Assembly: GCA_016281435.1 (NCBI GenBank) | Contig: JAEEIQ010000030.1 | Coordinates: 1-59,643, forward strand | Reading direction: 5' to 3' | Length of the DNA: 59,643 nucleotides | Source of the DNA: Bacteroidales bacterium | GTDB taxonomy: Bacteria; Bacteroidota; Bacteroidia; Bacteroidales; UBA932 | Shown: piece by piece, positions 18,301-41,733 of the stretch | Position numbering within the stretch: the first letter of the stretch is position 1 | Layout of the letters: every line of letters begins with the position of its first letter | Program-made: the position numbers and the translations under genes | The notes under the pieces: generated by a model | What the model saw: only the letters and a program-made list of their open reading frames with translations | Databases searched by the model: none | Told to the model about the DNA's origin: nothing

Positions 18301-18974
18301 AGGACCTCGACGTCAACGGTTTCATCCATGACGGCCGGGTCGAAGTGTTCCCCTTCATCATAGGGGTGGACCGCTACCGCCTGGCGCTCTGCGGGATGCA
18401 GGGCTTCGACAAGCAGCTGAACTACCACGTCTCCATCCTGAAGACCCCGCTTCCCATACGTTTCGGCATCAACATGTTCGGAACCCTCGACAAGTGGCGT
18501 TTCACTCTCGGAAGGGCGAAATACCGTGACGGAAAGGTCCCCGTGTTCACGGAGCAGATCGATACGATGCAGATCAACATCGTGGAGTCCATACGCCAGA
18601 TTTACCGCAAGGGTGTCAAGGCGGCGCTGCGTGAGAACGGACAGTCCGTGGGCCATGTGGAGAAGTACAAGAAGTCCATCGGGTACAAGACTCCCGACGG
18701 AAACGAGGACCTGCTGACGACGGCTGAGTACTGCCAGATAGACTCCCTGCAATTCGAGATGGAGATTGCCGAGATGGACGAGGAGATCATGGCGGAGGTC
18801 GAAAAGATACTCGACGAGACCTTTGTCTCGGCCGAGACCCTAAGGCGCGAATTCGACAAGATGTTTTTCGACAAGCGCCTGCTCCGCCAGCAGGAAAGGG
18901 CGGCGAAGCGCGATGCCCGCGCTGCGGAAAGGGCCGCGAAGAAAGCGGCCAAAGCTGAAAAGAAGAACAGTTAA
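15384..18974 (+). CDS. AsmA-family protein, very large
   Basis: A 1196-residue protein with one N-terminal membrane helix (about 10-30) and an AsmA/TamB-like beta-rich body: 'LNTPLTRKIIGRAVAENVDADLNYSKLRFSFFKAFPRMRV' is the classic AsmA start. Repeated units of 'SLDLAADG', 'KLDAGISD' and 'GKADADLGK' type run to about 1100, and the tail (about 1110-1196) is charged and helical, ending in Ala/Lys repeats. AsmA proteins are thought to bridge the periplasm and move lipids or assist outer-membrane assembly. Most of its body lies on the periplasmic side. It follows fumarase by six bases and precedes a lipoprotein gene by 19. Confidence 0.88.
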   Translation: MRSRFPKALGKAALIVLAVVAGIMVLLQVLLNTPLTRKIIGRAVAENVDADLNYSKLRFSFFKAFPRMRVTLRDLSLTYPHDRFAAYDSAAIRSRLLDAGRGEDVDTLLRFKEFSAAVNVWRIFGGRLRLAEAHLDGLGVFAHAYDTTANWDVFGPSKPKDTLDKKPLRLPWISVGKVSIGDRPRVVYTDQADTVLAAVRFDDFFLGGDVKLGKTLELRKIRLGLDSLRVHGRLPSDTLAFALDSLGVGQEDRFFDLALKARALLRSRALGRMRVPVDISSRVGFDQDESCTRIDVQRLDADVAHIPLRAEGFAEMFPDSTRLKLDAGISDCSLRDILREYLDGIVAEAREIDTDARLSLDLAADGSLTKTQIPVVDAALKVPSCRLSYRPMDLAGTFALDCSAHAAADKVVDALLGRLAVDVPGLDLDLSGRGEDLLGGNPFIAAKGKADADLGKVMKYLPAGLGIAATGRLLLDVDGAATMAQIKEYTADLKAHMQSDTLSVRMDNGLCVEAKDFRARVDNSTTRIAGASGFHPLEGHIDFGRLRMKTDSMRVGVRDMKNTVRIAKSEYRGRPSPRLSVSSENDRIFFRSGANRIGVKGVHLQAAATRRQRPSAARRRSFLDSLQRVYPGVPRDSLFSVMRRNHGRGRDIPYYMQEKSWASQDIDIALDSSMTRYLRQWSPSGSVKVEEGILAVPQLPLRNILTGLDASFTDNEIHLDKLAVISGTSDIDASGSVSGLRRALMRHGLLKADLSLVSSRLNVNELLAALQKGKELSVSAAPDDAEAVEYMSSFATDSLQNAEMAVEDIGLIVVPANVDANLDLTVCEVNYSDLDISSFTANAVMKERCVQITNAEVVSDAGNIHLDAFYSTKTKQDISAGFNVGLSEVSADKVISLLPTVDDLMPALKSFKGNLDCTLTATSQLDTNMNVIIPSLDGVIKISGKDLKVEDAGDLRRITRLLMFKNKNIGRIEDLDVNGFIHDGRVEVFPFIIGVDRYRLALCGMQGFDKQLNYHVSILKTPLPIRFGINMFGTLDKWRFTLGRAKYRDGKVPVFTEQIDTMQINIVESIRQIYRKGVKAALRENGQSVGHVEKYKKSIGYKTPDGNEDLLTTAEYCQIDSLQFEMEIAEMDEEIMAEVEKILDETFVSAETLRREFDKMFFDKRLLRQQERAAKRDARAAERAAKKAAKAEKKNS

Positions 18975-27500: not shown

Positions 27501-29668
27501 ATATGCCCGACGTCCTGCATCCGGAAGAACCCTTCGTCGTGAAGGTCTCCGAGAAGAATGGCCGCCCCATGACCTACACCCTGGCAATCGTGGACGAGGG
27601 TCTTCTGGACCTTACGTCGTTCAAGACGCCTGACCCTTGGAAGCATATGTACAAGGACGAAGCCATGACCATGGGTACATGGGACCTGTACGACAGCGTC
27701 ATAGGTTCGTTCGGCGCTAAACTCTCGCCCATGGCTTCCATCGGCGGAGACGAGGATGCGATCCGCAACGCCCGCAAGGACAACCGCTTCAACCCCGTGG
27801 TGCTTTGCCTGCCTCCGAGGACCGTCACGAAAGGGACTGACCAGGTCCGGCTCTCTCTTCCCATGTACGTCGGCAGTGTCCGCGTCATGGTCGTCTGCGC
27901 CCGTGACGGAGCGTTCGGAAGCACTGACAAGACAGTCCCGGTCAGGAATCCCCTGATGGTGGTGACCACCCTTCCCAGGGTCATGGGATGCGGGGAGAAG
28001 ACTTACGCGGCAGTCAACGTGTTCGCCATGGAAGACGGCATCGGTGAAGCGACGGTAAGTCTCAAGGCCGAAGGCCCTCTTTCCGGCGGCGGCGTGATGA
28101 CGGCCCGCTTCTCCGGCAAGGGAGACCGTATGCTTTCCTTCCCCCTGGAGGCTTCGGCCGTGGAGGGCACTGCACGGATAAGCGTCACTGCGACAGGCAA
28201 CGGCCACACAGCTTCCGAGACCATCTCCCTCGAGGTGCGGAATCCAAACCCGGAGGTGACGAGGATCGATCGTTTCACCCTCGAAAAGGGCGGGAAACGG
28301 CAGGTCGAGGCGAGTTCCCTGCAACTGGCAGGCTTCCCGGCCGTCGACGTGAAGGAGCTTTACCTCGGTATGAAGAACTATCCCTACAACTGCGCTGAAC
28401 AGTTGAGCGCCAAGGGAATGACATATCTCTATCTGCTTCCTCTCCTGGATGGGGACAGCGCCTCCGAGGCCCGCAGTCTCATACCGGGAGTCATCGGCAG
28501 CCTGTATTCCCGCCAGCAGCAGGACGGAGGCTTTGCGTACTGGCCTGGCGGGAAATCCGACACATGGGTTTCCTCCATGGCCGGGCAGTTCCTGACCGCG
28601 GCCTCGAAGGAAGGTTTCAACGTGGATTCAGGCGTGCTCAAGCGCTGGAAATCATATCAGCAGAAGATGTCCCAGGTCTACCGCCTGTCGTCCAACAATT
28701 TCCTCTCCAACCTTGACGAGGCGTACAGGCTTTACACCATGGCCCTGTCCGGGAATGCCAACCTTGCTGGTATGAACAGGATGAAGGAGGCGGCGGAGAT
28801 CGGCTCCGCGGCCCGCTGGATGCTTGCTTCGGCCTACGCCGTCAGCGGCAAGGTTTCGCTTGCGGAGGGCATCATCGACGGCACCGGACGCGAATTCCCC
28901 GAATATGAATCCTCCAACATGACTTATGGTACTTCCGAGAGGGATCTCTTCCTTGCAATCGACGCCCTTGCCCTTTGCGGCCGGGTCGAGGAAGCCCTGA
29001 GGCTGTCCGGGAACCTGCCTACGCGTGGCCTGTCCACCCAGGAGAGCGCCTTTGCGGCGGCGGCCCTCAATCATCTGCGTTCCAGGACCGGCGATTCCGG
29101 CATATCGGCCAAGGTCGGCGGCAGGGACGTACTGGCGTCATCGTCGCTGGTCCAGATGCCTCTCGACGGCCCTGTTGCGGTCGAAAATCTCTCCGACGGC
29201 AAGCTCTACTGCACGGCGGTGACCGTTTCACGGGAGCCGTCACGCAGGGCTGTCTCCAACGGTATGGACCTGGACGTGAGTTTCTTCAACGAGGACGGAG
29301 CGCCCATGAATCCCGCGTCCGTTTTCCAGGGAGCGAGGTTCAGCGCGAAGATAAAGGTCACCGGCAATGCTATGCGCCCGCTCGACAACCTGGCGCTCAG
29401 CTTCGCCATACCGTCCGGCTGGGAGATAGTGAACGAGCGTATGAGGGCATCGGCTCCCGGCGGAGATTCTTATGACTATAAGGACATACGGGACGACAGG
29501 GTGAACTGGTTCTTCTCCCTTCCGGCCGGCCGGTCCAGGACCTTCACTGTCCAGCTCCGCGCGGCGTACGAGGGCAGGTTCGTCTTGCCGGCGACCGTGT
29601 GCGGAGCGATGTACGACCCTTCGGTCAGCGCTTCGACGGCGAGCGGTTCTGTCGAAGTGGTCCGCTGA
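24563..29668 (+). CDS. Alpha-2-macroglobulin family lipoprotein
   Basis: A 1701-residue bacterial alpha-2-macroglobulin (YfhM/ECAM-like) with a lipoprotein signal (Cys23 in 'AVSC'). It has many beta-sandwich macroglobulin domains, a bait-like middle region with 'YGERGVWRPADTLHVTAIVSD' (MG domain mark), and the thioester motif 'YNCAEQ' with Cys1277 and Gln1280, followed by the alpha/alpha toroid ('GGFAYWPGGKSDTWVSS'). Such proteins trap proteases that reach the periplasm. Its stop overlaps the pbpC start by one base (TGATG). The A2M-PBP1C pairing is widespread and is read as wall repair coupled to defence. Confidence 0.94.
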   Translation: MSVRIFVIRFAVVMAALAAAVSCGRTSTAEPSASDYSDYISAFTGGVVAPGTSLRIDLARPASAMPADGLFSMTPQLKGEVKWLNDSQVCFVPDSASVKPGQTYKVVFALSKVIDGAPAKFRYDVAVKAPAKVFRLAAAENGSRSFRVLRAFLKDESCIEVQFTEAPVNASEKGLVELQGASRSYVRMDGKTMYVHFEGRRSDLTLTLDKGVKDKDGSSLGEDYVRVFGETEEPPAVTIPFKGNILPDKQSLILPFKAVNLSAVEVRVVKIYASNMLMFLQDNDLGEDRYLRRNGRLVYKGDVPLDSSLDLHKWNTHSIDLSGLFRQEPGAVYRIRLSFRQDQSLYGLDKPVSTLLTPISAPSGRDAAEWDEPETYYWDNYYSSDDYNWRESDDPSKPSYYMDSSRFPSVQLLASDLGLMADYSGQDRLWVTVTDLISAGTVPGASVEAFDFQLQSLAKGKTDSKGFVTLKVARKPFALVAKAGGSVSYLKLTDGSERSMSRFDIEGEVLKEGLKAYIYGERGVWRPADTLHVTAIVSDRGKSLPDGHPATLEVYTPSGQFYSKLTRSGKDGFYSFDIPTRPDDPTGYWNAYLKVGGSSFHKVLHVETIKPNRLKINTSYPQILEAGVTSAVQVEASWLTGGVAGNLPVRSSLTLRQAGGAPFKGFEKYSFSIPSGNYGSKELTLFKSRLAADGRANVSLTMPPAENAPGMLRAFIVTSVEEPGGDESFTTETLPYSPYSSYVGIRVPEGDFLETDKNHSFSVAVLGPEGKRVKGHKVEYAVFQTGWNWWWDNGGGDLDAYVHGSSVEKVQGGYLTPGSSDASFTFKVDYPLWGRYLVLARDVVSGHVSGATFFVDWPDYRGRADRRDPESLTMLTFSTDKPAYRAGEKATVYIPAAEGGRALVTLSNASGIISREWVSTRGTDTPWTFTVTPEMAPNIYAHVTLLQPYGAVKNDLPIRLYGVRKIKVENPASHLEPVVNMPDVLHPEEPFVVKVSEKNGRPMTYTLAIVDEGLLDLTSFKTPDPWKHMYKDEAMTMGTWDLYDSVIGSFGAKLSPMASIGGDEDAIRNARKDNRFNPVVLCLPPRTVTKGTDQVRLSLPMYVGSVRVMVVCARDGAFGSTDKTVPVRNPLMVVTTLPRVMGCGEKTYAAVNVFAMEDGIGEATVSLKAEGPLSGGGVMTARFSGKGDRMLSFPLEASAVEGTARISVTATGNGHTASETISLEVRNPNPEVTRIDRFTLEKGGKRQVEASSLQLAGFPAVDVKELYLGMKNYPYNCAEQLSAKGMTYLYLLPLLDGDSASEARSLIPGVIGSLYSRQQQDGGFAYWPGGKSDTWVSSMAGQFLTAASKEGFNVDSGVLKRWKSYQQKMSQVYRLSSNNFLSNLDEAYRLYTMALSGNANLAGMNRMKEAAEIGSAARWMLASAYAVSGKVSLAEGIIDGTGREFPEYESSNMTYGTSERDLFLAIDALALCGRVEEALRLSGNLPTRGLSTQESAFAAAALNHLRSRTGDSGISAKVGGRDVLASSSLVQMPLDGPVAVENLSDGKLYCTAVTVSREPSRRAVSNGMDLDVSFFNEDGAPMNPASVFQGARFSAKIKVTGNAMRPLDNLALSFAIPSGWEIVNERMRASAPGGDSYDYKDIRDDRVNWFFSLPAGRSRTFTVQLRAAYEGRFVLPATVCGAMYDPSVSASTASGSVEVVR

Positions 29669-31815
29669 TGAAGCTCCGGGGCGGGAAGACGGTCTTGCTG
29701 GCGGCAGGCGCTGCTTTGCTGCTTCTCTGGCTGTTCTGCCTGCCCCGCAGGTTATTCAGGGATGCCTGTTACTCCACGGTTGTCGAGAGCGCCGAAGGAG
29801 ACCTCCTCGGGGCGAGGATCGCCGCTGACGGGCAGTGGCGTTTCCCGCCGTGCGATATGGTCCCGGAGCGCTTCGCCGCAGCCCTCGTGCAGTTCGAGGA
29901 CCGTCATTTCTACCACCATCCCGGGGTCAATCCGGTGTCGATAGTCCGTGCTGCTGCGGACAATATCAGGAACCGGCGCGTTGTCAGCGGGGGAAGCACC
30001 ATCACCATGCAGGTGATACGCCTGTCCCGCCGCAAGCCCCGCAACCTGATCCAGAAGGCCGTTGAGGCCTTCATGGCGACGCGGCTGGAACTTCGCTTCA
30101 GCAAGCGGAAGATACTTGCCCTCTATGCATCCCACGCCCCTTTCGGAGGTAACGTCGTGGGGCTCGAGGCTGCGTCATGGCGCTATTTCGGCCGGCCTCC
30201 TTCGGAACTCTCCTGGGGGGAAGCAGCCACCCTCGCCGTACTGCCCAACGCGCCCGCGAGCGTCCATATGTCCAGGGGCAGGGAAGAACTGCTGGAAAAG
30301 CGCAACCGTCTTCTCAGGCGGCTGATGGAGCACGGGGACATTACGGAGGAAACTTATGAAGCTTCCTGCGAAGAGCCGCTTCCGGGCGCGCCCATGCCGC
30401 TTCCTTCGCTGGCCTCGCATTTCGTTTCCCGCTGCCCTGCCGGCAAAAGGACGCGCAGCACCATTTCGTTCCCGGTTCAAAGGAGCGTCGAAGCGGTCGT
30501 GGACAGGCGCTCCGACGACCTGGCCAGGGAAGGGATTGCGGACATGGCTGCCATCGTCCTGGATAACGCCTCAGGAGAAGTCCTGGCTTATGTGGGCAAT
30601 TCCTCGGCGTACAGGACAAGGCCGGGCTCGCAGGTGGACATCGCCTCGTCCCCCCGTTCGACCGGAAGCATCCTGAAACCCTTCCTTTATGCCGCTTCCC
30701 TGCAGGACGGGACCATCCTTCCGCGCACGCTGCTGCCGGATATCCCCGTGAATCTCAGCGGCTTCGCCCCTCAGAATTTCGACCGTAACTTCTACGGGGC
30801 AGTGCCTGCGGACGAGGCACTCAGCCGGTCGCTCAACGTCCCGATGGTCTTCCTCCTCAGGCAATACGGCATAGCGAAATTCCATGCGATCCTCAAAAGC
30901 GCCGGCCTGACCACCCTGACCGAGGCCCCGGACCATTACGGGCTGTCCCTGATTCTCGGCGGAGCCGAGGCCAGGCTGGACGAAGTCGCCGCCGCTTATT
31001 CTGCCTTTGCCGTGGGAAGGGACACGCCCTTCACCGACGCAGTAGCGCGGTGGTATACTTTCGAAGCCCTGGGGGAGGTGAACCGTCCGGACCAGCTTGA
31101 CTGGCGTCTTCTTTCCTCAGTGCGCAAGGCGGCCTGGAAGACCGGCACCAGTTACGGCTTCAGGGATGCATGGGCTGTAGGAATGACCCCGGAATACACC
31201 ATCGCCGTCTGGGCTGGAAATGCCGGCGGGCAGGGCATGCCGGGACTTACGGGAGCGCGTGCCGCTGGCCCTGTAATGTTCGAGATACTGAACCTTCTTC
31301 CATCTTCGGGCGTGTGGTTCGAGGAGCCTTCGGAAGGAGGGAAATGGGCGGACGTGTGTCCGGAATCCGGCTATCTTGCCGGAGCGGACTGCCCGCGGGA
31401 GCAGATGCTTATCCCGGAAGCCGGCCTCGACAGCGACCCCTGCCGCTACCATCCGAAGGGAGAGTTCGTGCTCCCTCCGGCCATGGAATGGTACTACAGG
31501 CCGTTCCATCCTGAGTACGCTTCCGCAAAAAAGGGCGCTTCCGAGATCCGGATGCAGTTTATCTATCCCCAGGAAGGAGCTGTCCTAAAGCTGCCGCGCC
31601 AGCTTTCAGGCGAAGTTGAGGGGGTGGTCTTCAGGGTCGCCCATCACGATTCGGATGCCGTCCTGTGGTGGCATCTGGACAATGAATACGTCGGGGAGAC
31701 CCGTTTCCGGCACGAGATGCGCCTGTCGCCCGTGACGGGAGAGCACGTATTGACTGTCGTGGATGCCGACGGCAACACTTCTTTCGTGCGCTTCACCGTC
31801 GTCCGGCCGGATTGA
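29668..31815 (+). CDS. pbpC: Penicillin-binding protein 1C
   Basis: A 715-residue bifunctional murein synthase with an N-terminal membrane anchor (about 8-25). The GT51 glycosyltransferase domain shows 'QFEDRHFYHHPG' (Glu77 catalytic) and 'GGSTITMQ' (108-115). The transpeptidase domain shows Ser334-x-x-Lys337 in 'STGSILKPF', 'SLN', and KTG at 491-493 ('KTGTSYGFRDAW'). The C-terminal about 90 residues match the BiPBP_C beta domain of PBP1C. The ATG at 29668 is coupled to the A2M stop. It converges on the GH3-type gene, with a small TGACCC/GGGTCA hairpin in the 10-base gap. Confidence 0.95.
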   Translation: MKLRGGKTVLLAAGAALLLLWLFCLPRRLFRDACYSTVVESAEGDLLGARIAADGQWRFPPCDMVPERFAAALVQFEDRHFYHHPGVNPVSIVRAAADNIRNRRVVSGGSTITMQVIRLSRRKPRNLIQKAVEAFMATRLELRFSKRKILALYASHAPFGGNVVGLEAASWRYFGRPPSELSWGEAATLAVLPNAPASVHMSRGREELLEKRNRLLRRLMEHGDITEETYEASCEEPLPGAPMPLPSLASHFVSRCPAGKRTRSTISFPVQRSVEAVVDRRSDDLAREGIADMAAIVLDNASGEVLAYVGNSSAYRTRPGSQVDIASSPRSTGSILKPFLYAASLQDGTILPRTLLPDIPVNLSGFAPQNFDRNFYGAVPADEALSRSLNVPMVFLLRQYGIAKFHAILKSAGLTTLTEAPDHYGLSLILGGAEARLDEVAAAYSAFAVGRDTPFTDAVARWYTFEALGEVNRPDQLDWRLLSSVRKAAWKTGTSYGFRDAWAVGMTPEYTIAVWAGNAGGQGMPGLTGARAAGPVMFEILNLLPSSGVWFEEPSEGGKWADVCPESGYLAGADCPREQMLIPEAGLDSDPCRYHPKGEFVLPPAMEWYYRPFHPEYASAKKGASEIRMQFIYPQEGAVLKLPRQLSGEVEGVVFRVAHHDSDAVLWWHLDNEYVGETRFRHEMRLSPVTGEHVLTVVDADGNTSFVRFTVVRPD

Positions 31816-31825
31816 CCCTGCCGGG

Positions 31826-33343
31826 TCAGTTCCCGCAGTTCATCGCGAGAAGTTCTTCGATATATTCCCTTGTGTTGTTGAGGCGGGGGACTTTATGCTG
31901 TCCTCCCAGTTTTCCCTTGGAAGCCAGCCATCCGTCGAAGAGACCCTTTCGGGCGGGTATGACTTCCAGGTGCTGCAGGGTGATGTCCTTGTAGCGCTTG
32001 GCGTCGTAGTCCGAGTTAACCGAACGCAGCGCATTATCCAGCGCGGTTTCGAAATCCGGGATGGACGAGGGCGCCTTCTCGAATTCGACCAGCCACTGGT
32101 GCCTGCACTGCCCCTTGCTGTCCATATAGACTGGAGCAGCGGTGTACTCGAGAACTTCGGCGTTGCAGGCCTTGCAGGCAGCTGAGATTGCCTTTTCAGC
32201 GTTGTCCACTATGACTTCTTCGCCGAAGGCGTTGATGAACTGCTTCGTGCGTCCGGTGAGGATGAACTTGTACGGATTCTTCTGAGTGAAGCGCACCGTG
32301 TCTCCTATCATGTAGCGCCACAGCCCGCATGAGGTCGTGATGCACATGGCGTAATTAACCCCGGGCTCGACTTTCCAGACCGGGACGGGGTCCTTCCCGT
32401 ATGCGGGATCGGTGGGTATGAATTCGTAGAAGATGTCGTAGTCGACCATCAGCAGTAGTGCCTGGTCGGACGGGTCGTCCTGTATGCCGAAGAACCCTTC
32501 AGAAGCGTTGTACGTCTCCATGTAGTGCATCTTTTCCGACGGGATGAGCTGCCTGTATATCTCCCTGTACGGGGCGAAGCCGACTCCGCCGTGGACGAAG
32601 AGTTCCAGGTTGGGCCAGACCTCGCTGAGATTGGCCTTTCCGGACAGTTCCATCACCTTTGTCAGCACGGACAACATCCATGACGGAACGCCGCTGATGC
32701 TGGTTATGTCCTTGTCGACGCACCAGCGGGCGAGCGCGTCGCGTTTCTGCTCGAAATCCCGTATCCTGGCAATCTTGAGAGGCGGCTGGATGTGCATCAG
32801 GTCCCTTATGACATCGGGGATGGCTTCGGTCATGATTGCGCTGACGTCGCCGGCTTCCGAGTCTGCCGTTGCGCAGTCGGGGTCCAGGCTTCCGGAAAGG
32901 ATGATGGAATGCCCGCTTCCCAGCCTTGATTCCGGATGCGCTCTGAGGTAGATGGCGGTCGCGTCGTGCCCGCCCATCAGATGAAGCCTGCGGAGGCCCT
33001 CCCTGCTGACAGGTATGAATTTGCTGCGGTCCGAGGTCGTACCTGAAGACTTGGCGAAATGTTTTATCTGTCCTCTCCAGAGGACGTCTTTTTCGCCCTG
33101 GCGCATTCTTTCGATGTAGCCCTTGAGGTCGTCGTAATTGCATACAGGGACCCTGGCTGCGAAGTCTTCATAGCTGTGGATGTCCTTGAAATCGTGCTTG
33201 ATGCCCCATTCCGTCTGTGATGCGCGGCGGATCAGGCTTCCCAGTCTCTTTCTCTGGAAGTGTTCGGCGTCGGCCGCATAGCGGCTGAGGGCCAGCCTGC
33301 GGGGGGCAAGGTAAGCAAAAGCGGTTTTCGTTGCTAGGTCCAT
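31826..33343 (-). CDS. GH3 auxin-responsive-promoter family protein (acyl-adenylating)
   Basis: A 505-residue member of the GH3/JAR1 family, part of the ANL adenylating superfamily; plant members join amino acids to hormones, while the bacterial substrates are unknown. Visible are the ATP loop 'AKSSGTTSDRSKFIPVS' near 95-112, 'ETYNASEGFFGIQDD' (motif 2, near 275) and 'IGDTVRFTQKNPYKFILTGRTKQFINAFGEEV' (motif 3, near 345-375). Full length and intact. It is a single gene facing pbpC, with its own promoter. Amide bond formation on an acyl acid is the likely chemistry. Confidence 0.9.
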   Translation of the reverse strand: MDLATKTAFAYLAPRRLALSRYAADAEHFQRKRLGSLIRRASQTEWGIKHDFKDIHSYEDFAARVPVCNYDDLKGYIERMRQGEKDVLWRGQIKHFAKSSGTTSDRSKFIPVSREGLRRLHLMGGHDATAIYLRAHPESRLGSGHSIILSGSLDPDCATADSEAGDVSAIMTEAIPDVIRDLMHIQPPLKIARIRDFEQKRDALARWCVDKDITSISGVPSWMLSVLTKVMELSGKANLSEVWPNLELFVHGGVGFAPYREIYRQLIPSEKMHYMETYNASEGFFGIQDDPSDQALLLMVDYDIFYEFIPTDPAYGKDPVPVWKVEPGVNYAMCITTSCGLWRYMIGDTVRFTQKNPYKFILTGRTKQFINAFGEEVIVDNAEKAISAACKACNAEVLEYTAAPVYMDSKGQCRHQWLVEFEKAPSSIPDFETALDNALRSVNSDYDAKRYKDITLQHLEVIPARKGLFDGWLASKGKLGGQHKVPRLNNTREYIEELLAMNCGN

Positions 33344-33559: not shown

Positions 33560-33586
33560 CGTATCTTGCAAAACAATTTGAAGGGT

Positions 33587-34771
33587 ATGAAAGAAATCAA
33601 TTCAAGAGTGCGCTATATCGGCGCCGACGACACGGATCTCGATCTGTTTGAAAGCCAGTATGCCGTCCCGGAAGGGATGGCCTATAATTCATATTTGATT
33701 CTGGGCGACAAGGTCGCCGTCATGGACACCATCGACGCCCGCAGGGGCGGGGAGTGGAAAAAGAACCTGGAGGAGGCCCTTCAGGGCCGGACTCCTGATT
33801 ATCTTGTCATCCAGCATCTCGAGCCAGACCACTCGGCCCTGATCGCGTGGGCCGCCGACCGCTTTCCAAGGATGACCCTGGTTGCGAGCGCGAAGGCCGT
33901 CTCGATGCTCCCCCAGTTCTTCGACGGGAGGACTTTCGAAGGACGCGTCCTGGCCGTGAAGGATGGGGACATGCTCGATCTTGGCGGCTGTTCGCTAAGG
34001 TTCATGCTTGCTCCAATGGTCCACTGGCCCGAAGTGATGGTCAGCTACCTTCCGGAAGACGGAATCCTGTTTTCCGCCGACGCTTTCGGCAAGTTCGGAG
34101 CTCTCGGCAAATGCGGCTTCTGGGGCGATGAGGATGACGACTGGGCATGCGAAGGAAGGCGGTACTATTTCAATATCTGCGGGAAGTACGGAGGTCCCGT
34201 CCAGACTCTGCTGAAGAAGGCTTCCGCGCTGGATATCAAAACCATCTGCCCCCTGCACGGACCCGTGCTCCGAAAAGATCTCGGACAGTATCTGGACCTT
34301 TACGGGACATGGAGCAGCTACGGCGTCGAGACGGAAGGCGTATTCGTCGCGTGCGCTTCCATACACGGCGGCACGAAGGCGGCTGCCGAACGTTTCGTTG
34401 ACATACTTAAAGCCAAGGACTGCCCCAAAGTCGCGTTCAGCGACCTCACGAGGGACGACCAGGCCGAAGCCGTCGAGGATGCTTTCCGTTACGGCAAGCT
34501 CGTCGTGGCCGCCGCTTCTTATGATGCAGGGCTTTTCCCGCCTGCATTCGAATTCATACATCACCTGCAGGACAAGGCATGGCAGAAACGCCGCGTCGGC
34601 CTTATCGAGAACGGCTCGTGGGCCCCTTCCGCCGGAAGGGTGATGCGTGAGATGTTCTCTTCGATGAAAGACGTTGAAATAGTGGAACCTGCAGTCACCA
34701 TCCGCAGCCGTATGAAGGAAACCGACGTGGCTGCGCTGGAAAATCTTGCAGATTCCATCCTGGGCGATTAA
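33587..34771 (+). CDS. Flavodiiron protein (FprA-type)
   Basis: A 394-residue A-type flavoprotein that reduces O2 or NO to protect an anaerobe. The N-terminal metallo-beta-lactamase-like domain carries the diiron ligands 'HLEPDH' (His77, Glu79, Asp81, His82), then 'MVHWPEVMVSY' and 'CPLHGPVLR'. The C-terminal flavodoxin domain starts near residue 250 ('FVACASIHGGTKAAAERF'), with an FMN loop 'HGGT'. No extra rubredoxin domain follows. The start at 33587 is preferred over a start seven codons earlier that lies in the tRNA-Val terminator region. Confidence 0.93.
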   Translation: MKEINSRVRYIGADDTDLDLFESQYAVPEGMAYNSYLILGDKVAVMDTIDARRGGEWKKNLEEALQGRTPDYLVIQHLEPDHSALIAWAADRFPRMTLVASAKAVSMLPQFFDGRTFEGRVLAVKDGDMLDLGGCSLRFMLAPMVHWPEVMVSYLPEDGILFSADAFGKFGALGKCGFWGDEDDDWACEGRRYYFNICGKYGGPVQTLLKKASALDIKTICPLHGPVLRKDLGQYLDLYGTWSSYGVETEGVFVACASIHGGTKAAAERFVDILKAKDCPKVAFSDLTRDDQAEAVEDAFRYGKLVVAAASYDAGLFPPAFEFIHHLQDKAWQKRRVGLIENGSWAPSAGRVMREMFSSMKDVEIVEPAVTIRSRMKETDVAALENLADSILGD

Positions 34772-34802
34772 ACCTTTGCCGTCATAGGACGTCAAACTTA
34801 AA

Positions 34803-35909
34803 GTGAACCGGTTCAAAAGTTTCCTTGACAGGAAGGACATAAGGCCGACCCTTCAGCGTTACGGGGTCGATGCGATGGGCGCGATGGCGCAGGGACTGTT
34901 CTGTACCCTGCTCGTCGGGACCATCCTGGATACGTTGGGTATCCAGCTTGGAATCGGCTTCCTGACGCGTACGGTCGTCACTGTCGCCGGGAAATGTTTC
35001 ACGATTGGCGGCCTGGCTTCCGCCATGGCAGGTCCCGCGATGGCAGTGGCCATAGGATATGCCCTGAAAGCCCCGGCGCTGGTGCTGTTCACGCTTGTCC
35101 CGGTCGGTTACGCTACCAATGCATTGGGCGGCGCGGGCGGTCCTTTCGCGGTGTATGTCGTGACCCTGCTCGCCGCCGAACTGGGGAAGGCCGTCAGCAA
35201 GGAGACAAAAATCGACATTCTCGTCACTCCTGCCGTGACTTTGCTCGCCGGAGTCGGGATCTCCCTTCTGATAGCGTCGCCTATAGGCCGCGCCGCGAGC
35301 GCCCTGGGACGCCTTGTAATGTGGGCTACCGAACTTCATCCTTTCGTGATGGGCATACTCGTTTCCGTGCTTGTCGGAATGGCCCTTACATTGCCGATAT
35401 CCTCCGCGGCAATCTGCGCGGGGCTTGGACTGACCGGGCTTGCGGGAGGGGCGGCCGTTGCCGGATGCTGTGCGCAGATGGTAGGCTTCGCCGTGATGAG
35501 TTTCCGTGAAAACCGCTGGGGCGGGCTTGTCAGCCAGGGGATAGGCACCAGCATGCTTCAGATGGGCAATATCATAAGGAATCCGCGTATCTGGATTCCT
35601 CCTGTCGCGGCTTCAGCCGTGACAGGGCCTCTTGCGACCTGCGTGTTCCGGCTCCAGATGAACGGCGCCGCGGTCAATTCCGGAATGGGCACATGCGGCC
35701 TCTGCGGGCCTATAGGCGTGTGGACGGGATGGGTCGCCCCTTCGGAGGCGGCAGTGGCGGGAGGTGCTGTTCCGATGACTCCTTCTTTAATGGACTGGGC
35801 TGGTCTTGCGCTTGTTTGCATCGTCCTCCCGGCCCTTATCTGCGCCCTTCTCGGCGCTCTTTTCCGCCGGACAGGATGGATACGGCCCGGCGACCTCAAA
35901 CTGCAATAA
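34803..35909 (+). CDS. PTS EIIC-like integral membrane protein (PF13303 type)
   Basis: A 368-residue, very hydrophobic protein with about ten membrane segments and many Gly/Ala pairs. 'TNALGGAGGPFAVYVVTLLAAELGKAVSKETKIDILVTPAVTLLAGVG' and 'MNGAAVNSGMGTCGLCGPIGVWTGW' fit the PTS_EIIC_2 family, which occurs without EIIA or EIIB partners. None of these PTS components is seen in the window, so transport may not be phosphotransferase-driven. The start is GTG at 34803. It stands 31 bases after the flavodiiron gene and ten before the DUF1549/DUF1553 gene, so cotranscription with the latter is plausible. Confidence 0.78.
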   Translation: MNRFKSFLDRKDIRPTLQRYGVDAMGAMAQGLFCTLLVGTILDTLGIQLGIGFLTRTVVTVAGKCFTIGGLASAMAGPAMAVAIGYALKAPALVLFTLVPVGYATNALGGAGGPFAVYVVTLLAAELGKAVSKETKIDILVTPAVTLLAGVGISLLIASPIGRAASALGRLVMWATELHPFVMGILVSVLVGMALTLPISSAAICAGLGLTGLAGGAAVAGCCAQMVGFAVMSFRENRWGGLVSQGIGTSMLQMGNIIRNPRIWIPPVAASAVTGPLATCVFRLQMNGAAVNSGMGTCGLCGPIGVWTGWVAPSEAAVAGGAVPMTPSLMDWAGLALVCIVLPALICALLGALFRRTGWIRPGDLKLQ

Positions 35910-35919
35910 TTCCATTCAT

Positions 35920-37404
35920 ATGAAACGCTTGATACCTCTTGCTTTTCTCCTGCTGAGTCAAATCGCCTTGGCGGGAGGCATTGACCGGTACATAGCAATC
36001 GGGCTGGCCCGCCAGGGAGTTACCGCTTCCGCGCGTGCCGACGACGCCCTGCTCGTACGGCGGTACTATCTCGTCGTGACCGACCGCATCCCCACGGAGG
36101 CCCAGACCCGCGCCTTCCTTGCAAACCCTGACTGCGAGGCCCTCGTCGACAGTCTTCTGGCGAGCGACGGCTTCGCCGGAAAACTGGTCCTGAAGTGGGG
36201 GGACCTCCTCCGCATCAAGTCGGAATTCCCAAGCTGCATGTGGCCCAATGCCGTACAGGCGTATAACAAGTGGCTTCTGGAAGAATTCAGGGCGAATACT
36301 CCGTACGACCTTTTCGTCCGCAGGCTGATGACCGGGACAGGCAGCAATTTCCGTTATCCGCAGACCAATTTCTACCGGGCCGGTTCCGACCGCAGTCCGC
36401 GGAAGTTCGCCTCCGATGCAGCGCTCCTTTTCCTCGGCCGCAGGGATGCTCCCAAGGAATGGGATCCCTTCTTCAGCCAGATCAGATTCAAAAGCACCAA
36501 GGAATGGAAGGAGGAAATTCTGTGCCTTGATGCTGACGTGCTGCCGCCTGCAGCCCCGATAAAACTCGGAGACAGGACCGTGACCCTGGAAGAAGGGACT
36601 GATTTCCGGATTCCCTTCGTTGAATGGCTTACTTCAGCCGGCAACAGGGATTTCGCCCTCGCCTTCGCCAACCGCCTGTGGTACTGGCTTATGGGCCGGG
36701 GAATAATCGATCCCGTGGACGATCTCGGCAGCGGGGCCGCATCCTCGAATCCAGCCCTTCTCAACTATCTTACCGACCGCTTTATAGAGTCAGGTTTCAA
36801 TGTGCGTGCCCTTGCGAGGGAAATACTCCTTTCCGACGCGTTCGCGCGCAGTACTCTTTATAGTCCGGACCAGGCATGCGACGATGCCCTTTTCGCGCAT
36901 TTCCCGCAGGGCAGGCTTACCGCCGAGCAGATCTGCGATGCCATCTGCGACATCACCGGAGTGCCGGACAGGTATTCCAGCCGGGCTCCGGAACCATTCA
37001 CCAATTTTCCGGCCGGGACACGCGCCGTGGAGGTCTGCGACGGCACGATCACCACGCCCCAGCTTGATATCTTCGGTCGCCCCTCGCGTGATTCCGCCCT
37101 CGAAAGCGGAAGGGATAATTCCGTGAATGCCAAACAGATGTTGTATCTTCTCAATTCTACCGACATCCAGTCGAAGCTGAAAGCCAGCCCGTGGCTCGGT
37201 TTGGCGCAGTGGAAGGGAAACGTCCGGGCAATGACGGATGACGTCTATATGCGTGTCCTCTCGCGCCATGCCACTCCGGAGGAAATCAAGGCCGTATCGG
37301 CTTGGTATTCCGGGATGAAAGAGCAGGGCATGAAGTTCCGTACCGCCGCCGAATCCCTTGTCTGGGCCCTTATGAACACCGATGAATTCTTATTCCTTAA
37401 TTGA
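35920..37404 (+). CDS. Secreted DUF1549/DUF1553 protein
   Basis: A 494-residue protein with a signal peptide (about 1-19, 'LIPLAFLLLSQIALAGG'). The first half resembles DUF1549 ('RIPTEAQTRAFLANPDCEALVDSLLASDGFAGKL', 'LLEEFRANTPYDLFVRRLM') and the second DUF1553 ('FANRLWYWLMGRGIIDPVDDLG', then 'NPALLNYLTDRFIESGFNVRALAREILLSDAF'). These domains abound in Planctomycetes and Verrucomicrobia, usually with a cytochrome-c-type CxxCH domain in front; no CxxCH is present here and the protein is about half the usual size. Function of the family is unknown. The DUF1501 gene begins one base after its stop. Confidence 0.82.
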   Translation: MKRLIPLAFLLLSQIALAGGIDRYIAIGLARQGVTASARADDALLVRRYYLVVTDRIPTEAQTRAFLANPDCEALVDSLLASDGFAGKLVLKWGDLLRIKSEFPSCMWPNAVQAYNKWLLEEFRANTPYDLFVRRLMTGTGSNFRYPQTNFYRAGSDRSPRKFASDAALLFLGRRDAPKEWDPFFSQIRFKSTKEWKEEILCLDADVLPPAAPIKLGDRTVTLEEGTDFRIPFVEWLTSAGNRDFALAFANRLWYWLMGRGIIDPVDDLGSGAASSNPALLNYLTDRFIESGFNVRALAREILLSDAFARSTLYSPDQACDDALFAHFPQGRLTAEQICDAICDITGVPDRYSSRAPEPFTNFPAGTRAVEVCDGTITTPQLDIFGRPSRDSALESGRDNSVNAKQMLYLLNSTDIQSKLKASPWLGLAQWKGNVRAMTDDVYMRVLSRHATPEEIKAVSAWYSGMKEQGMKFRTAAESLVWALMNTDEFLFLN

Positions 37405-37405
37405 G

Positions 37406-38677
37406 ATGAAACGCCTTTTTACCATACTGTCGCTCTGTCTGTCCGCATTGACGACGGTCCATGCGCAGAATGCACGTGCTCTCGTGTACATCTACCTTGA
37501 CGGAGGCTCATCGCAGACGGATACTTTCGATCCCAAGCCTGAAGCCGGCTACAATTACACCGGCAAGTACAAGACTCCCGTGGAAACTGCGGTTCCGGGC
37601 GTTTTTTTCGGAGAGAGGCTCGTAAAACTTGCCTCCATCGCCGACCGGCTGGCTGTGCTCCGGGGAATGTGCGACGGCACCAATGCCCATGAGACGGGCC
37701 ACTACCGCATGCTTACCGGGGACATGACGGGCCAGGACATCGTCTATCCTTCATACGGTGCCATGATCGCCTACAAGAAGCAGGCTGAATACGACAATCC
37801 GCTTTTCCCTTATATCTGCATCACCGAGGCTTCGACGCGCTTCAACGAGGCCGGCTTCCTGAATGTCATGTTCAAGCCCTACGACACCGGAGGCAAGCCC
37901 GCCGACAAGTGGTTCGACGTGAGCGGTATAGTGGACCACAACATCCCGGACGCCCTGCTCGAGGCCCGGAGGGACCTGCTCGGAAGGCTGGTCCCCCTGG
38001 GAAAGAAGGTCCAGCAGACGGAAGAAGTCCGGAAGGCGGCCGCTTTCCGCAGCCAGGGTTTTGAAATCATGCTCGGTCAGGCGCGCAAATGTTTCGACCT
38101 TGCTTCCGAACCCGATTCGTTGCGTCAGGCCTACGGCATGAACAATTTCGGCCAGTCCTGCCTGGCGGCGCGCAAGCTTGTCGAGCAGGGAGTGCTGGTC
38201 ACCATGGTCCGTTTCCGTGGCTGGGATACCCACAAGGAGCATTTCAAGCGTATGGACCAGAGGCTAGACGAACTTGACGCCGGCGTATCCTCGCTGATCC
38301 TGGACCTCGAGGCAAGAGGTCTTCTCGAAAGTACCATCGTCGTCGTTGGAGGCGAGTTCGGCCGTACGCCGCTGATTGCCTTCGGACCGCCATGGAACGG
38401 TGGCAGGGGCCACTACGGGGCCGCTTTTTCCTACCTCGTGGCCGGAGGAGGATTCAAGGGCGGTACCGTCGTAGGCAAGACTGACGCAAAGGGGGAGACC
38501 GTCGTGGAGCGAAAGATCTATCCGGCCGATCTCTGGGCCAGCGTATATACCCTCATGGGAATCGATCCTCTCGGCACCGTCGAACACCCCGTGTACGGGC
38601 GTATACCAATGCTCCCGTCTTATGGCAAGGAGGGGCAGAGCAACGGAATGTTGACCGAAATAATGGAACTGCGGTGA
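37406..38677 (+). CDS. Secreted DUF1501 protein (sulfatase/alkaline-phosphatase-like fold)
   Basis: A 423-residue protein with a signal peptide (about 1-20). Typical DUF1501 blocks are seen: 'VYIYLDGGSSQTDTFDPKPEAG', 'VPGVFFGERLVKLASIADRLAVLRGM', 'AHETGHYRMLTG', 'GGEFGRTPLIAF', 'GRGHYGAAFSYLVAGGGFKGGTVVGKTD' and 'YPADLWASVYTLMGIDP'. The family belongs near the alkaline phosphatase/sulfatase superfamily, but a clear catalytic Ser/Cys metal site is not certain here. In planctomycetes it is regularly paired with DUF1549/DUF1553, as it is here. It overlaps the next gene at TGATG. The substrate is unknown; a periplasmic or surface role is likely. Confidence 0.87.
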   Translation: MKRLFTILSLCLSALTTVHAQNARALVYIYLDGGSSQTDTFDPKPEAGYNYTGKYKTPVETAVPGVFFGERLVKLASIADRLAVLRGMCDGTNAHETGHYRMLTGDMTGQDIVYPSYGAMIAYKKQAEYDNPLFPYICITEASTRFNEAGFLNVMFKPYDTGGKPADKWFDVSGIVDHNIPDALLEARRDLLGRLVPLGKKVQQTEEVRKAAAFRSQGFEIMLGQARKCFDLASEPDSLRQAYGMNNFGQSCLAARKLVEQGVLVTMVRFRGWDTHKEHFKRMDQRLDELDAGVSSLILDLEARGLLESTIVVVGGEFGRTPLIAFGPPWNGGRGHYGAAFSYLVAGGGFKGGTVVGKTDAKGETVVERKIYPADLWASVYTLMGIDPLGTVEHPVYGRIPMLPSYGKEGQSNGMLTEIMELR

Positions 38678-40770
38678 TGAAAAAGACAATGTTTATTGCT
38701 GCGGCGCTGCTTGTCGGCTTTTCCGCAGCCGCCCAGAAGGGCAATATAGGATATGTGTACCCGGCCGGAGCGTGCCGCGGAACCACGGTCGAAGTGACCG
38801 TCGGCGGCCAGAATCTCTCGAAGGCTACCGGGATTGTCATCAGCGGGAAGGGCGTCAAAGGCGAACTCATTCCCGCGGCACAGGGCCCGAAGAAGAAGGG
38901 CCGGAAGAACCGTGATATCGGCGAGGAGGACAATCTCCAGCTTGCCGACAAGGTGACTTTCCGCCTGACGGTCGACAAGGATGCCGCCCTCGGGATGAGG
39001 GACGTGCGGCTTATGACCCCCGGCGGTATGACGAACCGCCTGTATTTCGAAGTGGGCGAACTGCCTGATGTCGCAGAGGACCCCTCCGGAGAGCTTTCGG
39101 CGGCTGCGACGCTCCTGCCGGTGACATTCAACGGGCAGGTGATGCGCAGTGACGTGGACCGTTTCCGTTTTCCCGCCAGGAAGGGCCAGCAGCTGGTCCT
39201 GAAGGTCAGGGGGCGTGTGTTCGTTCCATACATGGCGGATGCCGTTCCAGGATGGTTCCAGCCCATTATACGCCTGTTCGGACCTGACGGGAAGGAAGTC
39301 GCCTTCAATGACGATTACCGCCATGAAGTGGATCCAGTGCTGTTCTTCGAGGTCCCTTCAGACGGGGATTATGTGGTCATGATCAACGACGCCCTCTACC
39401 GCGGGCGGGAGGATTTCGTGTACCGGATAGACGTGGGAGAACTTCCGTTCATTACTTCTGTCTCGCCGCTGGGCGGTCCTGCCGGGGTCCGCAACAAGGT
39501 GACGCTGACCGGATACAACCTCAAGTCGGATAAGCTCAGGCTGCCGGCTTCCGGTCCCGGACGTATGCCGGTAACCACCGTCGGCAAGAACGGGCTGCAC
39601 TCCAATACGATGTGGTTCTGCTCGGACGACAGGCCGGCACTTGACACCCGCAAGCTGGCGCCGGACACCGCCGAGTCTTCCGCATGGAACCTTCCCGCGG
39701 AAACGGTATGCGGGAACTGTTTTACCGCTCCGATGCAGATGCATTGGTATCAGGTCGAGGTCGCAGACCGCAAGCCCGTGCATTTCAGTGTGCAGGCCCG
39801 TCGGCTGGGGTCGCCGGCGGATGTGCGTATTACGCTGTTTGACGCATACATGAACAAGGTCCAGGACGTGGATGACACGGAGGACCCGGCCGAGTTCATG
39901 TCCACTCATTTCGCGGATCCCGAGATGACCCTCCCGCTCAAGCCGGGCCGCTATCTTCTCCGCGTTTCCGAGTCGCAGTCCCACTTCGGGCCGGAGTTTG
40001 CATACCGGCTCAGCTGGGGCCCGGCCGAGCCGGATTTTGCCCTGAACATAGAACCTGCGACAATATCCGTTCCTGAGGGAGGCAGCGCGGTTTTTACCGT
40101 CCAGATGACACCCCGGCAGAATTATCATGGCGGAGTGGATATCAGCGTCAAGGGGCTCCCTGCCGGATTCTCGCTTTCCGGAAACCGGATAGAACCGGGC
40201 AGAAAGAAGACCCTTGTGTCCATTACGGCTCCTTCTGGGGCTGAAAAAGGAACGCTCAACCCGAAAGTGAGCGGCACTTCCGACGGCAACGGGCCTGCCG
40301 TCACGCGGGAAGCCGTCCCGGCGGAATCCATGATGCAGGCGTTTTATTATACCCACCTCATGCCTATGGAAGATTTCCGTGTCGAAGTGGGAGAGAAGAC
40401 TCCGTTCCGCGTCAAGGTCGTCAGGGACAGCAAGGGGCCGCTGCGCCTGAGCCGGGGCGGGACAACGGCGCTCCGGGTGCATCTGGACAGGGATCCGGGC
40501 TTTGACTCGCCTGTGACACTGATGCTGAAATCTTCGGAACAGTTCGTGAAGGCGGAAGCCGTCGTGATCCCGGAAGGGGAGTCGGACGGCGTGCTCGAGG
40601 TGGTAGTCAGGGACGTCAAGGCCAAGAGGACCGCATACCCCCGGCTTTCCGTATACGGCGTCGTAAAGGGGTCTTCATCCCGCATTGCAGGCAAGGGCCG
40701 CAATGCCTTTGTCGCATCCGTGACCGCTTATGCTCCCGTCGTGATAGCGGAGGTCCCTGCAAGGAAATAG
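38677..40770 (+). CDS. Secreted multi-domain beta protein (pre-peptidase-like domains)
   Basis: A 697-residue protein with a signal peptide (about 1-19, 'FIAAALLVGFSAAAQ'). It begins with an IPT/TIG-like domain ('YVYPAGACRGTTVEVTVGGQNLSKATGIVISGKGV'), has a pre-peptidase-like unit ('VDRFRFPARKGQQLVLKVRG', 'FFEVPSDGDYVVMINDALYRGREDFVYRIDVGELPFITSVSP'), a second one around residue 350-450, then Ig-like units to the end. Family pairs in planctomycetes include proteins of this build. The ATG at 38677 is preferred to the GTG one codon earlier, and overlaps the DUF1501 stop. It may be the binding or scaffold partner of the two upstream products. Confidence 0.8.
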   Translation: MKKTMFIAAALLVGFSAAAQKGNIGYVYPAGACRGTTVEVTVGGQNLSKATGIVISGKGVKGELIPAAQGPKKKGRKNRDIGEEDNLQLADKVTFRLTVDKDAALGMRDVRLMTPGGMTNRLYFEVGELPDVAEDPSGELSAAATLLPVTFNGQVMRSDVDRFRFPARKGQQLVLKVRGRVFVPYMADAVPGWFQPIIRLFGPDGKEVAFNDDYRHEVDPVLFFEVPSDGDYVVMINDALYRGREDFVYRIDVGELPFITSVSPLGGPAGVRNKVTLTGYNLKSDKLRLPASGPGRMPVTTVGKNGLHSNTMWFCSDDRPALDTRKLAPDTAESSAWNLPAETVCGNCFTAPMQMHWYQVEVADRKPVHFSVQARRLGSPADVRITLFDAYMNKVQDVDDTEDPAEFMSTHFADPEMTLPLKPGRYLLRVSESQSHFGPEFAYRLSWGPAEPDFALNIEPATISVPEGGSAVFTVQMTPRQNYHGGVDISVKGLPAGFSLSGNRIEPGRKKTLVSITAPSGAEKGTLNPKVSGTSDGNGPAVTREAVPAESMMQAFYYTHLMPMEDFRVEVGEKTPFRVKVVRDSKGPLRLSRGGTTALRVHLDRDPGFDSPVTLMLKSSEQFVKAEAVVIPEGESDGVLEVVVRDVKAKRTAYPRLSVYGVVKGSSSRIAGKGRNAFVASVTAYAPVVIAEVPARK

Positions 40771-40782
40771 GCCCGGAGGCGT

Positions 40783-41652
40783 TCAGCCGAAGATAATGGT
40801 CCTGTTCTTATAGGTCAGGATCTTGCGCTCGATGTGCTTTGTGACGGCGCGGCTGAGTACTATCTTTTCCAGGTCCTTGCCCTTCTTTGCAAGGCTTTCC
40901 GGAGTGTCCTTGTGGCTGATGCGTACTACGTCCTGCTCGATGATGGGACCCGCGTCCAGTTCGCTTGTGACGTAGTGGCTGGTCGCGCCGATGATCTTGA
41001 CCCCTCTCTCGTAGGCCTGGTGGTAAGGCTTCGCCCCGACGAAGGCCGGGAGGAACGAGTGGTGGATGTTGATGATATGGTGCGGGTATGCCGCGATCAT
41101 GTTCCCTCCTATTATCTGCATGTAGCGCGCGAGGACGATGAAGGAAACCTTTTCTTCCTTCATGAGTTCCATCTGGGCCCTTTCAACTTCTGCGAAATTC
41201 GATTTGTCGGCCGCCACGGGGAAGCAGTGGAAGGGGATGCCGAACTGGTCGGCCACGAAATGCAGGTCCTCGTGGTTGCTGACTATGCAGGGTATGTCGA
41301 CATCCCATTCACCGGCCTGCCAGCGTGCCAGCAGGTCGTACAGGCAGTGGCTCATCTTGCTGACGAAGATGGCCATACGGGGGCGCTCCTCGCCAATGAA
41401 CACGCTCGTGTACATGTCGTAGCGCGCCCTGAACTCGGCATCGAGGGTTTCCTTGATCCTGCCGGACGGGATGTCGAATCCGTCGAGTTCCCATTCTATC
41501 CTCATGAACAGGTGCCCTTCAATCGTATCCACGTACTGGTCCAGATAGACGATATTGCCGTGGTGGGCGGTGAGAAAGCCCGTCACTTCAGTTATTATAC
41601 CCTGCCTGTCGGGGCAGTGCAGGAGGAGTACTGCCTTGGAACTTGAATTCAT
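40783..41652 (-). CDS. purU: Formyltetrahydrofolate deformylase
   Basis: A 289-residue PurU, which hydrolyses 10-formyl-THF to formate and THF and so balances one-carbon units. Residues about 5-85 form the ACT domain ('AVLLLHCPDRQGIITEVTGFL'); the rest is the formyltransferase-like domain with the catalytic Asn in 'IVSNHEDL', His in 'NIHHSFLPAF' and Asp in 'SELDAGPIIEQD'. The start at 41652 fits the normal N-terminus; a start eight codons earlier is possible. It converges on the beta-domain gene and stands alone. Confidence 0.95.
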   Translation of the reverse strand: MNSSSKAVLLLHCPDRQGIITEVTGFLTAHHGNIVYLDQYVDTIEGHLFMRIEWELDGFDIPSGRIKETLDAEFRARYDMYTSVFIGEERPRMAIFVSKMSHCLYDLLARWQAGEWDVDIPCIVSNHEDLHFVADQFGIPFHCFPVAADKSNFAEVERAQMELMKEEKVSFIVLARYMQIIGGNMIAAYPHHIINIHHSFLPAFVGAKPYHQAYERGVKIIGATSHYVTSELDAGPIIEQDVVRISHKDTPESLAKKGKDLEKIVLSRAVTKHIERKILTYKNRTIIFG

Positions 41653-41733
41653 GATAAGCCGACTAACGGGCCGCAAGTTACGAAATAATTGCCAAAAATC
41701 TTACTTCCCGCTTTCTTCCGCCCTGCGCCGGGA

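Follow-up and report, generated by a model that had tools for sequence, protein, structure and literature searches.

What do three closely packed genes for apparently exported proteins do in a Bacteroidales genome, and is the set a local one? The genes lie in a stretch of 59,643 nucleotides (contig JAEEIQ010000030.1 of assembly GCA_016281435.1, from a Bacteroidales bacterium), which was analysed as a whole and is termed the window. They encode proteins A, B and C, together the triad, and are preceded by the gene of a membrane protein:

34803..35909, + strand: PTS_EIIC_2-like membrane protein (Pfam PF13303, E 1.2e-81)
35920..37404, + strand: A, DUF1549 (PSCyt2) and DUF1553 (PSD1) by Pfam, 494 amino acids, ATG start at 35920
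37406..38677, + strand: B, DUF1501 by Pfam, 423 amino acids, ATG start at 37406
38677..40770, + strand: C, PPC-like and IPT/TIG-like regions (Pfam, under cut-off), 697 amino acids

A, B and C are one conserved cassette, with a fixed order across phyla. The family of A is probably a remote relative of DUF1800, and in many relatives of the window the cassette stands beside a gene for a chorismatase-like protein, here called D.

The genes of the cassette

The three genes are separated by next to no sequence. One base lies between A and B (37404 and 37406), and the TGA stop codon of B (38675-38677) shares a base with the ATG of C at 38677, giving the overlap TGATG. Ten bases separate the end of the PTS-like gene (35909) from the ATG of A (35920). 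Downstream, C meets the gene of a formyltetrahydrofolate deformylase (PurU; 40783-41676, - strand) head-on. These boundaries, gaps and overlap are as the original prediction gave them, and its domain names for A and B are borne out by Pfam. Protein A matches PSD1/DUF1553 (PF07587) with E 4.9e-38 and 131.4 bits (cut-off 28.5) and PSCyt2/DUF1549 (PF07583) with E 6.9e-23 and 82.1 bits (cut-off 29.8), while B matches DUF1501 (PF07394) with E 6.9e-82 and 276.1 bits (cut-off 27) over positions 1-365 of the 390 in the profile. The matches of C lie below their cut-offs, at E 9.8e-5 and 23.6 bits for PPC (PF04151; cut-off 25.9) and E 0.0027 and 18.1 bits for TIG (PF01833; cut-off 20.9); among the 120 relatives of C that were listed, most carry a precomputed PF04151 assignment. 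Judged by eye, the N-terminal 20-25 residues of A, B and C look like Sec-type signal peptides.

The window copies of A, B and C are under purifying selection. Compared with the nearest relatives (loci L001 and L002) by the NG86 method, the ratio of nonsynonymous to synonymous substitution rates (dN/dS) is ~0.08 for A, 0.07-0.09 for B and 0.13-0.15 for C, with dS at 1.3-2.1 and thus near saturation. With these Pfam matches and the low dN/dS, the three are real genes rather than chance frames.

Gene order and reach of the cassette

In a protein search with C, 8000 candidates were scored, and at least 5382 of them are relatives at E <= 0.001. The loci compared here are the best 80 of at least 586 stretches confirmed when 16 aligned C proteins were used as query against reference genomes; being picked by similarity to C, they favour triads. 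Genes were delimited as open frames; distances between them are therefore approximate, and some frames are incomplete, being fragments or truncated at the end of a contig (A in L035 and L076, D in L042 and L063). Phylum labels are taken from record titles, mostly of metagenome-assembled genomes (MAGs).

Profiles run on the open frames find B in 76 of these loci and A in 60, and all 60 loci that hold A have the order A-B-C on a single strand, which supports the functional unit proposed for the window. Twenty loci lack A, and in 17 of these B or C lies within ~1.3 kb of a contig end. B and C are separated by a WD40 protein in L004 and L007 and, in L039, by a frame that matches no Pfam family; planctomycete DUF1501 genes that adjoin WD40 genes are described in PMC5587647. 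Complete triads occur in eight phyla by record title: Bacteroidota (21), Verrucomicrobiota (17), Planctomycetota (12), Armatimonadota (4), Acidobacteriota and Hydrogenedentes (2 each), and Lentisphaerota and Kiritimatiellota (1 each), to which the window is added. C is the third gene in Planctomycetota- and Verrucomicrobiota-titled records too, and the suggestion that it had been added locally in the window does not hold.

The DUF1501 matches fall into score bands. Nine triad-bearing genomes contain 100 DUF1501 matches (1 to 32 per genome), with 48 at 378-547 bits, 17 at 299-336 bits and 35 lower. All 15 C matches of at least 479 bits in these genomes adjoin a DUF1501 of the 299-336-bit band; nine of these pairs arise by construction, the genomes having been reached via triad loci, and six more in G573 do not.

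Clusters of PSCyt2-PSD1 and DUF1501 with exported products are described for planctomycetes and Verrucomicrobia in PMC5615132, PMC4452313 and PMC2754498, the last giving 41 occurrences each of DUF1549 and DUF1553 in Rhodopirellula baltica. The triad is built from the same Pfam families, and differs in having no haem motif, a fixed third partner in C, and a DUF1501 of 299-336 bits as against 378-547 bits for 48 of the 100 matches.

Protein A and its kinship with DUF1800

The A protein of the window lacks CxxCH, the haem-binding motif of planctomycete-specific cytochrome c, and a haem role for it is rejected on that account. Among 61 A frames, a few of them shortened by contig ends, CxxCH is found in four (L004, L007, L014 and L039); the other 57 are without it, whatever the phylum. 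It occurs in none of 78 B frames and none of 84 C frames. An A protein without haem motif is thus the norm of the set, and the pair in the window is not a locally reduced form, as had been proposed.

A second property of A is its likeness to DUF1800. Profile-profile alignment by hhalign gives E 7.7e-4 with 46 A and 7 DUF1800 sequences and 3e-4 with 61 and 7; with the fuller DUF1800 set it gives 3.9e-5 (46 vs 13) and 2e-6 (61 vs 13; 343 columns, probability 89.5). Probabilities over the four pairings are 25, 40, 70 and ~90. Controls, run on the smallest pairing, reach E 0.064 for the best of 40 column shuffles and 0.33 for the reversed profile, and the profiles of B, C and D against the fuller DUF1800 set give E 0.26-0.98. 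In addition, a PSD1 protein of L136 matches Pfam DUF1800 at 3.8e-4. The DUF1549/1553 family is probably a remote homologue of DUF1800, to judge by these profiles.

The two families also share a genomic partner. Strong DUF1800 matches, 15 in number, occur in 7 of 16 genomes, and each has a DUF1501 match no more than 1.4 kb away, in agreement with the DUF1800-DUF1501 pairs described in PMC5122149, for example beside bacterial chitin synthases. In both arrangements DUF1501 stands beside a large, probably homologous partner, which in the triad is the DUF1549/1553 protein; the DUF1800 pairs are without C. Profile and context together suggest that the partners of DUF1501, whether DUF1549/1553 or DUF1800, form a single superfamily.

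Protein B and its likeness to sulfatases

B is the most conserved protein of the three, with a mean column identity of 60% (50 rows) compared with 50% for A (46 rows) and 47% for C (16 rows). Its invariant motifs are W-D-x-H, H-E, G-E-F-G and G-G-R-x-H. B is sulfatase-like by profile: hhalign against sulfatases (PF00884) gives E 2.8e-5 and probability 74 over 102 columns, confined to the C-terminal half; the best of 40 shuffles reaches E 0.0093 and the reversed profile 0.89. The aligned stretch leads up to the GDHG/SDNG motif of sulfatases. We take DUF1501 to be a member of the Pfam alkaline-phosphatase clan. Searches of PDB sequences with the single proteins of the triad gave no match at E <=0.01.

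A chorismatase-like neighbour

Clustering of the flanking frames gives one family, D, that lies beside the triad in 37 loci; every other recurrent neighbour cluster is found in at most 10 loci. A profile built from 36 of the 37 members (the L063 fragment being excluded) finds D beside the triad in 44 of the 80 loci, in eight phyla, and in 34 of the 51 loci that have A and are flanked on either side by 1.3 kb or more. D is placed upstream on the same strand in 24 of the 44, upstream and divergent in 8, downstream on the same strand in 10 and downstream on the opposite strand in 2, one of these being L069, where it directly follows a second, inverted triad. In 43 of the 44 it lies within 300 bp of the triad or overlaps it as an open frame. 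On the triad tree, the presence of D needs 10 state changes.

Four D members were scanned with Pfam and comprise FkbO_Hyg5-like_N and Ribonuc_L-PSP domains, one being below the FkbO cut-off. For one member, the match to the Hyg5 chorismatase of known structure has E 1.6e-25 (PDB 5AG3 and 5A3K, of Hyg5 type). Residues of 3-hydroxybenzoate synthases named in PMC7170507 were transferred to D by a constant offset of nine and a D/Hyg5 alignment. All 44 triad-linked D proteins have the Cys, the Glu and the second Gly, and 42 of them have the first Gly (the other two show one Ala and one gap); all four are present in 16/16 D proteins from other regions of the Alistipes family, of which that in L126 is triad-linked. 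The D of many triads thus matches Hyg5-type chorismatases and keeps the residues given in that source, and 3-hydroxybenzoate synthesis is its predicted activity. Whereas those chorismatases are linked to polyketide clusters, D stands with genes for exported proteins. Literature searches on DUF1501, and on chorismatases together with planctomycetes, returned no paper linking chorismatases with the triad families.

D and DUF1501 are also associated at the level of genomes. In the family of G004 (L017, titled Alistipes) at least 37 of 150 genomes have PF21168, the Pfam model used for D, and all 9 genomes that bear DUF1501 over cut-off are among these 37 (hypergeometric p 1.5e-6, kinship not corrected for); the other 28 have no DUF1501 over cut-off. 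Among 13 genomes with DUF1501 at <1e-80 (G001-G010, G332, G338 and G469), D is found in 10 by PF21168 and in G009 by the D profile. PF21168 is not fully sensitive, finding 10 of 15 D-bearing genomes (one below cut-off), so such counts are lower bounds. In L003, whose C is 53% identical to that of the window, D directly follows C.

D also occurs apart from the triad. The Alistipes family was surveyed through 20 regions, 18 of them without the triad; greedy gene picking labelled D in 16 (all except L117, L119, L121 and L122). A beta-propeller/cytochrome protein with two CxxCH motifs is present in 17 of the 18 triad-less regions, and a second cluster of frames with two CxxCH is present in 7 regions of the survey. 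Four frames of the second cluster were scanned, and those of L107, L109 and L110 carry HZS_alpha, in L109 fused to an FGE-sulfatase domain. D, the beta-propeller protein and the HZS_alpha-type protein form in these three triad-less regions a second exported-protein context for D. In L118 D is part of a longer conserved run with Pfam matches to Dak1, Dak2, a DeoC/LacD-type aldolase and a Mala_s_1-like protein, together with two unassigned proteins. Similar runs are seen in L112, L113, L115, L120 and L123-L125, and this type of run is possibly a catabolic pathway.

Distribution within Bacteroidales

The triad is sporadic and rare in Bacteroidales. Its nearest relatives, L001 and L002, carry Bacteroidales titles. 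DUF1501 is over cut-off in one of 119 genomes of the family of G001, which is G001 itself (the genome of L001); in the order of G001 it is over cut-off in 14 of 295 genomes, 4 of them (including G001) at E<1e-80. The share in the Alistipes family is the 9 of 150 given above. Ten Bacteroidota genomes with triad loci, of 1.5-6.4 Mb, have one full-length DUF1501 copy each. The set is thus neither common nor already characterised in the order; PMC4452313 describes DUF1501 as uncharacterised.

A tree of 61 concatenated triads (a quick SH-aLRT tree without bootstrap) places the window with L001 and L002 with support 100. This clade is nested in a group of 20 rows, again with support 100, that comprises 18 Bacteroidota, one Verrucomicrobiota MAG (L006) and the window. 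The triad of L006, in a MAG titled Verrucomicrobiales inside the Bacteroidota set, reflects either a transfer or a mis-binned contig.

Other genes of the window

Upstream of the PTS-like gene the window contains:

15384-18974: frame of 1196 residues, no Pfam match at 1e-5
24563-31815: bacterial alpha-2-macroglobulin, then a penicillin-binding protein (PbpC-like by eye)
31826-33343, - strand: GH3-family protein (Pfam)
33566-34771, collinear with the triad and the PTS-like gene: flavodiiron-like protein (matches of ODP beta-lactamase and flavorubredoxin type)

Plant members of the GH3 family link small acids, including benzoates, to amino acids. Eight neighbours in the window were compared by blastp with the frames of the 80 loci, and the flavodiiron-like, GH3, PbpC, PurU, acyltransferase and Pgi proteins were rejected as conserved partners of the triad. 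The comparison gave three matches in all, PurU in L032 and ClpP twice in L026, and the flavodiiron-like, GH3 and PbpC genes stand beside none of the 80 triads.

The Bacteroidetes-type promoter TTTG-N18-22-TANNTTTG occurs 8 times in the window, with none between 33522 and 35920. A sigma-70 scan is near shuffle level (4 vs mean 2.6, sd 1.2) and a terminator scan is under it (5 vs mean 7.4). The Rfam scan of the window gives eight tRNAs and nothing else. Co-transcription of 33566-40770, from the flavodiiron-like gene to C, is possible to judge by this arrangement.

Discussion

We tentatively prefer, at somewhat less than an even chance, a reading in which the cassette provides an exported enzyme of sulfatase fold, its partner and a binding protein, directed at an extracytoplasmic substrate and standing in the window without a linked chorismatase. 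B would be the catalytic subunit, an exported hydrolase or transferase of the alkaline-phosphatase superfamily. A would be the partner or scaffold of B, a role in which DUF1800 proteins seem to serve other members of the DUF1501 family, and C may bind or present the substrate. The three would act jointly outside the cytoplasm on a substrate that bears an ester. In most Bacteroidota relatives and in many others the adjoining chorismatase-like enzyme is the probable source of a hydroxybenzoate, which the cassette would either use or act upon. The link to D suggests a phenolic acid in the relatives, and this part is missing in the window. There D does not lie beside the cassette, probably through loss in the lineage, and the exported part would work without a linked chorismatase. 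The handling of a polymer at the surface or outside the cell, put forward in the original prediction, would be compatible with the sulfatase-like profile of B. The observation on which that prediction was built is sound, and its frame is too narrow.

A number of observations weigh against this preferred reading. L044, L051 and L061 have C without A despite room on the contig, L061 being without B also. Of three weaker C matches, two (225 and 180 bits; G568:C19 and G573:C132) adjoin DUF1501 proteins that score 381 and 378 bits, and the third (298 bits; G570:C53) has no neighbouring DUF1501. With single sequences the kinship with DUF1800 is faint: the window's A scores -0.2 bits (E 1) against a DUF1800 HMM and has no match to Pfam DUF1800 at E 1, and the best A protein (L053) reaches 10.4 bits. 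When the B profile was compared with PDB sequences a sulfatase came first, but at E 0.037, which is not significant alone. B reads GEFG where sulfatases read GDHG or SDNG, and the Cys/Ser-x-Pro-x-Arg sequence of sulfatases is lacking in the B of the window, as in 48 of the 50 B rows. At these two motifs B departs from the canonical metal ligands and nucleophile of sulfatases, so its active site must differ from theirs and it may not be catalytic. Neither the literature searches nor those of PDB sequences yielded a DUF1501 or DUF1549/1553 protein with a known activity, substrate or structure. Finally, the D profile finds no match in the frames of the window, whose triad is thus without linked chorismatase. 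A PF21168 search of G001 and G002 found none either; since PF21168 missed 5 of 15 D-bearing genomes, the absence of D from these two is not secure beyond the flanks.

The changed motifs of B, and a C protein made of binding-type regions, would equally suit a structural or adhesive complex at the cell surface in which DUF1501 is a pseudo-enzyme without catalysis. The strong conservation of B and its invariant motifs are as expected of an enzyme, and we regard a non-catalytic complex as improbable. Earlier proposals for these families, made from domain names and context, were of a redox role (PMC2754498) and of a role with carbohydrates (PMC5615132). A redox or electron-transfer system, with electrons handled at the cell surface by the DUF1549/1553 protein, would agree with the former, with the family members bearing c-type haem domains in PMC5615132, with the two-CxxCH protein next to D in 17 of 18 triad-less Alistipes-family regions and with the flavodiiron-like gene upstream in the window. 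The flavodiiron-like gene adjoins none of the 80 triads, and CxxCH is missing from the window's A, from 57 of 61 A frames and from all B and C frames, so that electron transfer is distinctly unlikely.

D could be given a more central part. A, B and C might export, attach or remove a chorismate-derived hydroxybenzoate on a surface molecule, with D making the acid and the lineage of the window obtaining it from elsewhere or from an unlinked D. The recurrence of D in 44 loci in several arrangements, with its 10 state changes, and the inclusion of all nine DUF1501 genomes of the Alistipes family among those with PF21168 are in favour. The lack of D in the window and of PF21168 in G001 and G002, the 28 PF21168 genomes without DUF1501 over cut-off and the lack of a recognised chemistry to use the acid, no other recurrent neighbour cluster exceeding 10 loci, count against it, and we consider such a role unlikely. 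Slightly less doubtful, though still improbable taken as a whole, is the broader proposal, across phyla, of a cytoplasmic 3-hydroxybenzoate synthase that feeds an exported system made up of the DUF1501 enzyme, its DUF1549/1553 partner and the binding protein; a small phenolic acid would thereby be attached to the cell surface or used there. The window would then have the exported half without its linked synthase, and DUF1549/1553 and DUF1800 would make up one superfamily.

It is very improbable that the cassette came by recent transfer from Planctomycetes or Verrucomicrobia, or that it works with the PTS-IIC-like protein. Sporadic presence, down to one of 119 genomes in the family of the nearest relative, would fit a transfer, and the ten-base gap before A would fit a link with the membrane protein. 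The grouping of the window, L001 and L002 inside the 20 mostly Bacteroidota rows speaks against recent transfer from planctomycetes, and a fresh transfer from bacteria of the Planctomycetes-Verrucomicrobia-Chlamydiae group is disfavoured likewise. PF13303 is found in the flanks of 0/80 loci and in 0/13 genomes of relatives, on which count the PTS-IIC-like protein is rejected as part of the cassette, and its place in the system of the original prediction is not supported.

DUF1501 and DUF1549/1553 are abundant uncharacterised planctomycete families. A triad without haem motif, with one full-length DUF1501 per Bacteroidota genome, is a simpler case than a planctomycete carrying dozens of paralogues. 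Since a chorismatase gene recurs next to the triad, there is a definite small molecule to search for, and with it a handle on function, and the link to DUF1800 suggests that one answer could serve several families. The value of the finding lies in these chorismatase and DUF1800 links rather than in the presence of the cassette in a Bacteroidales genome.

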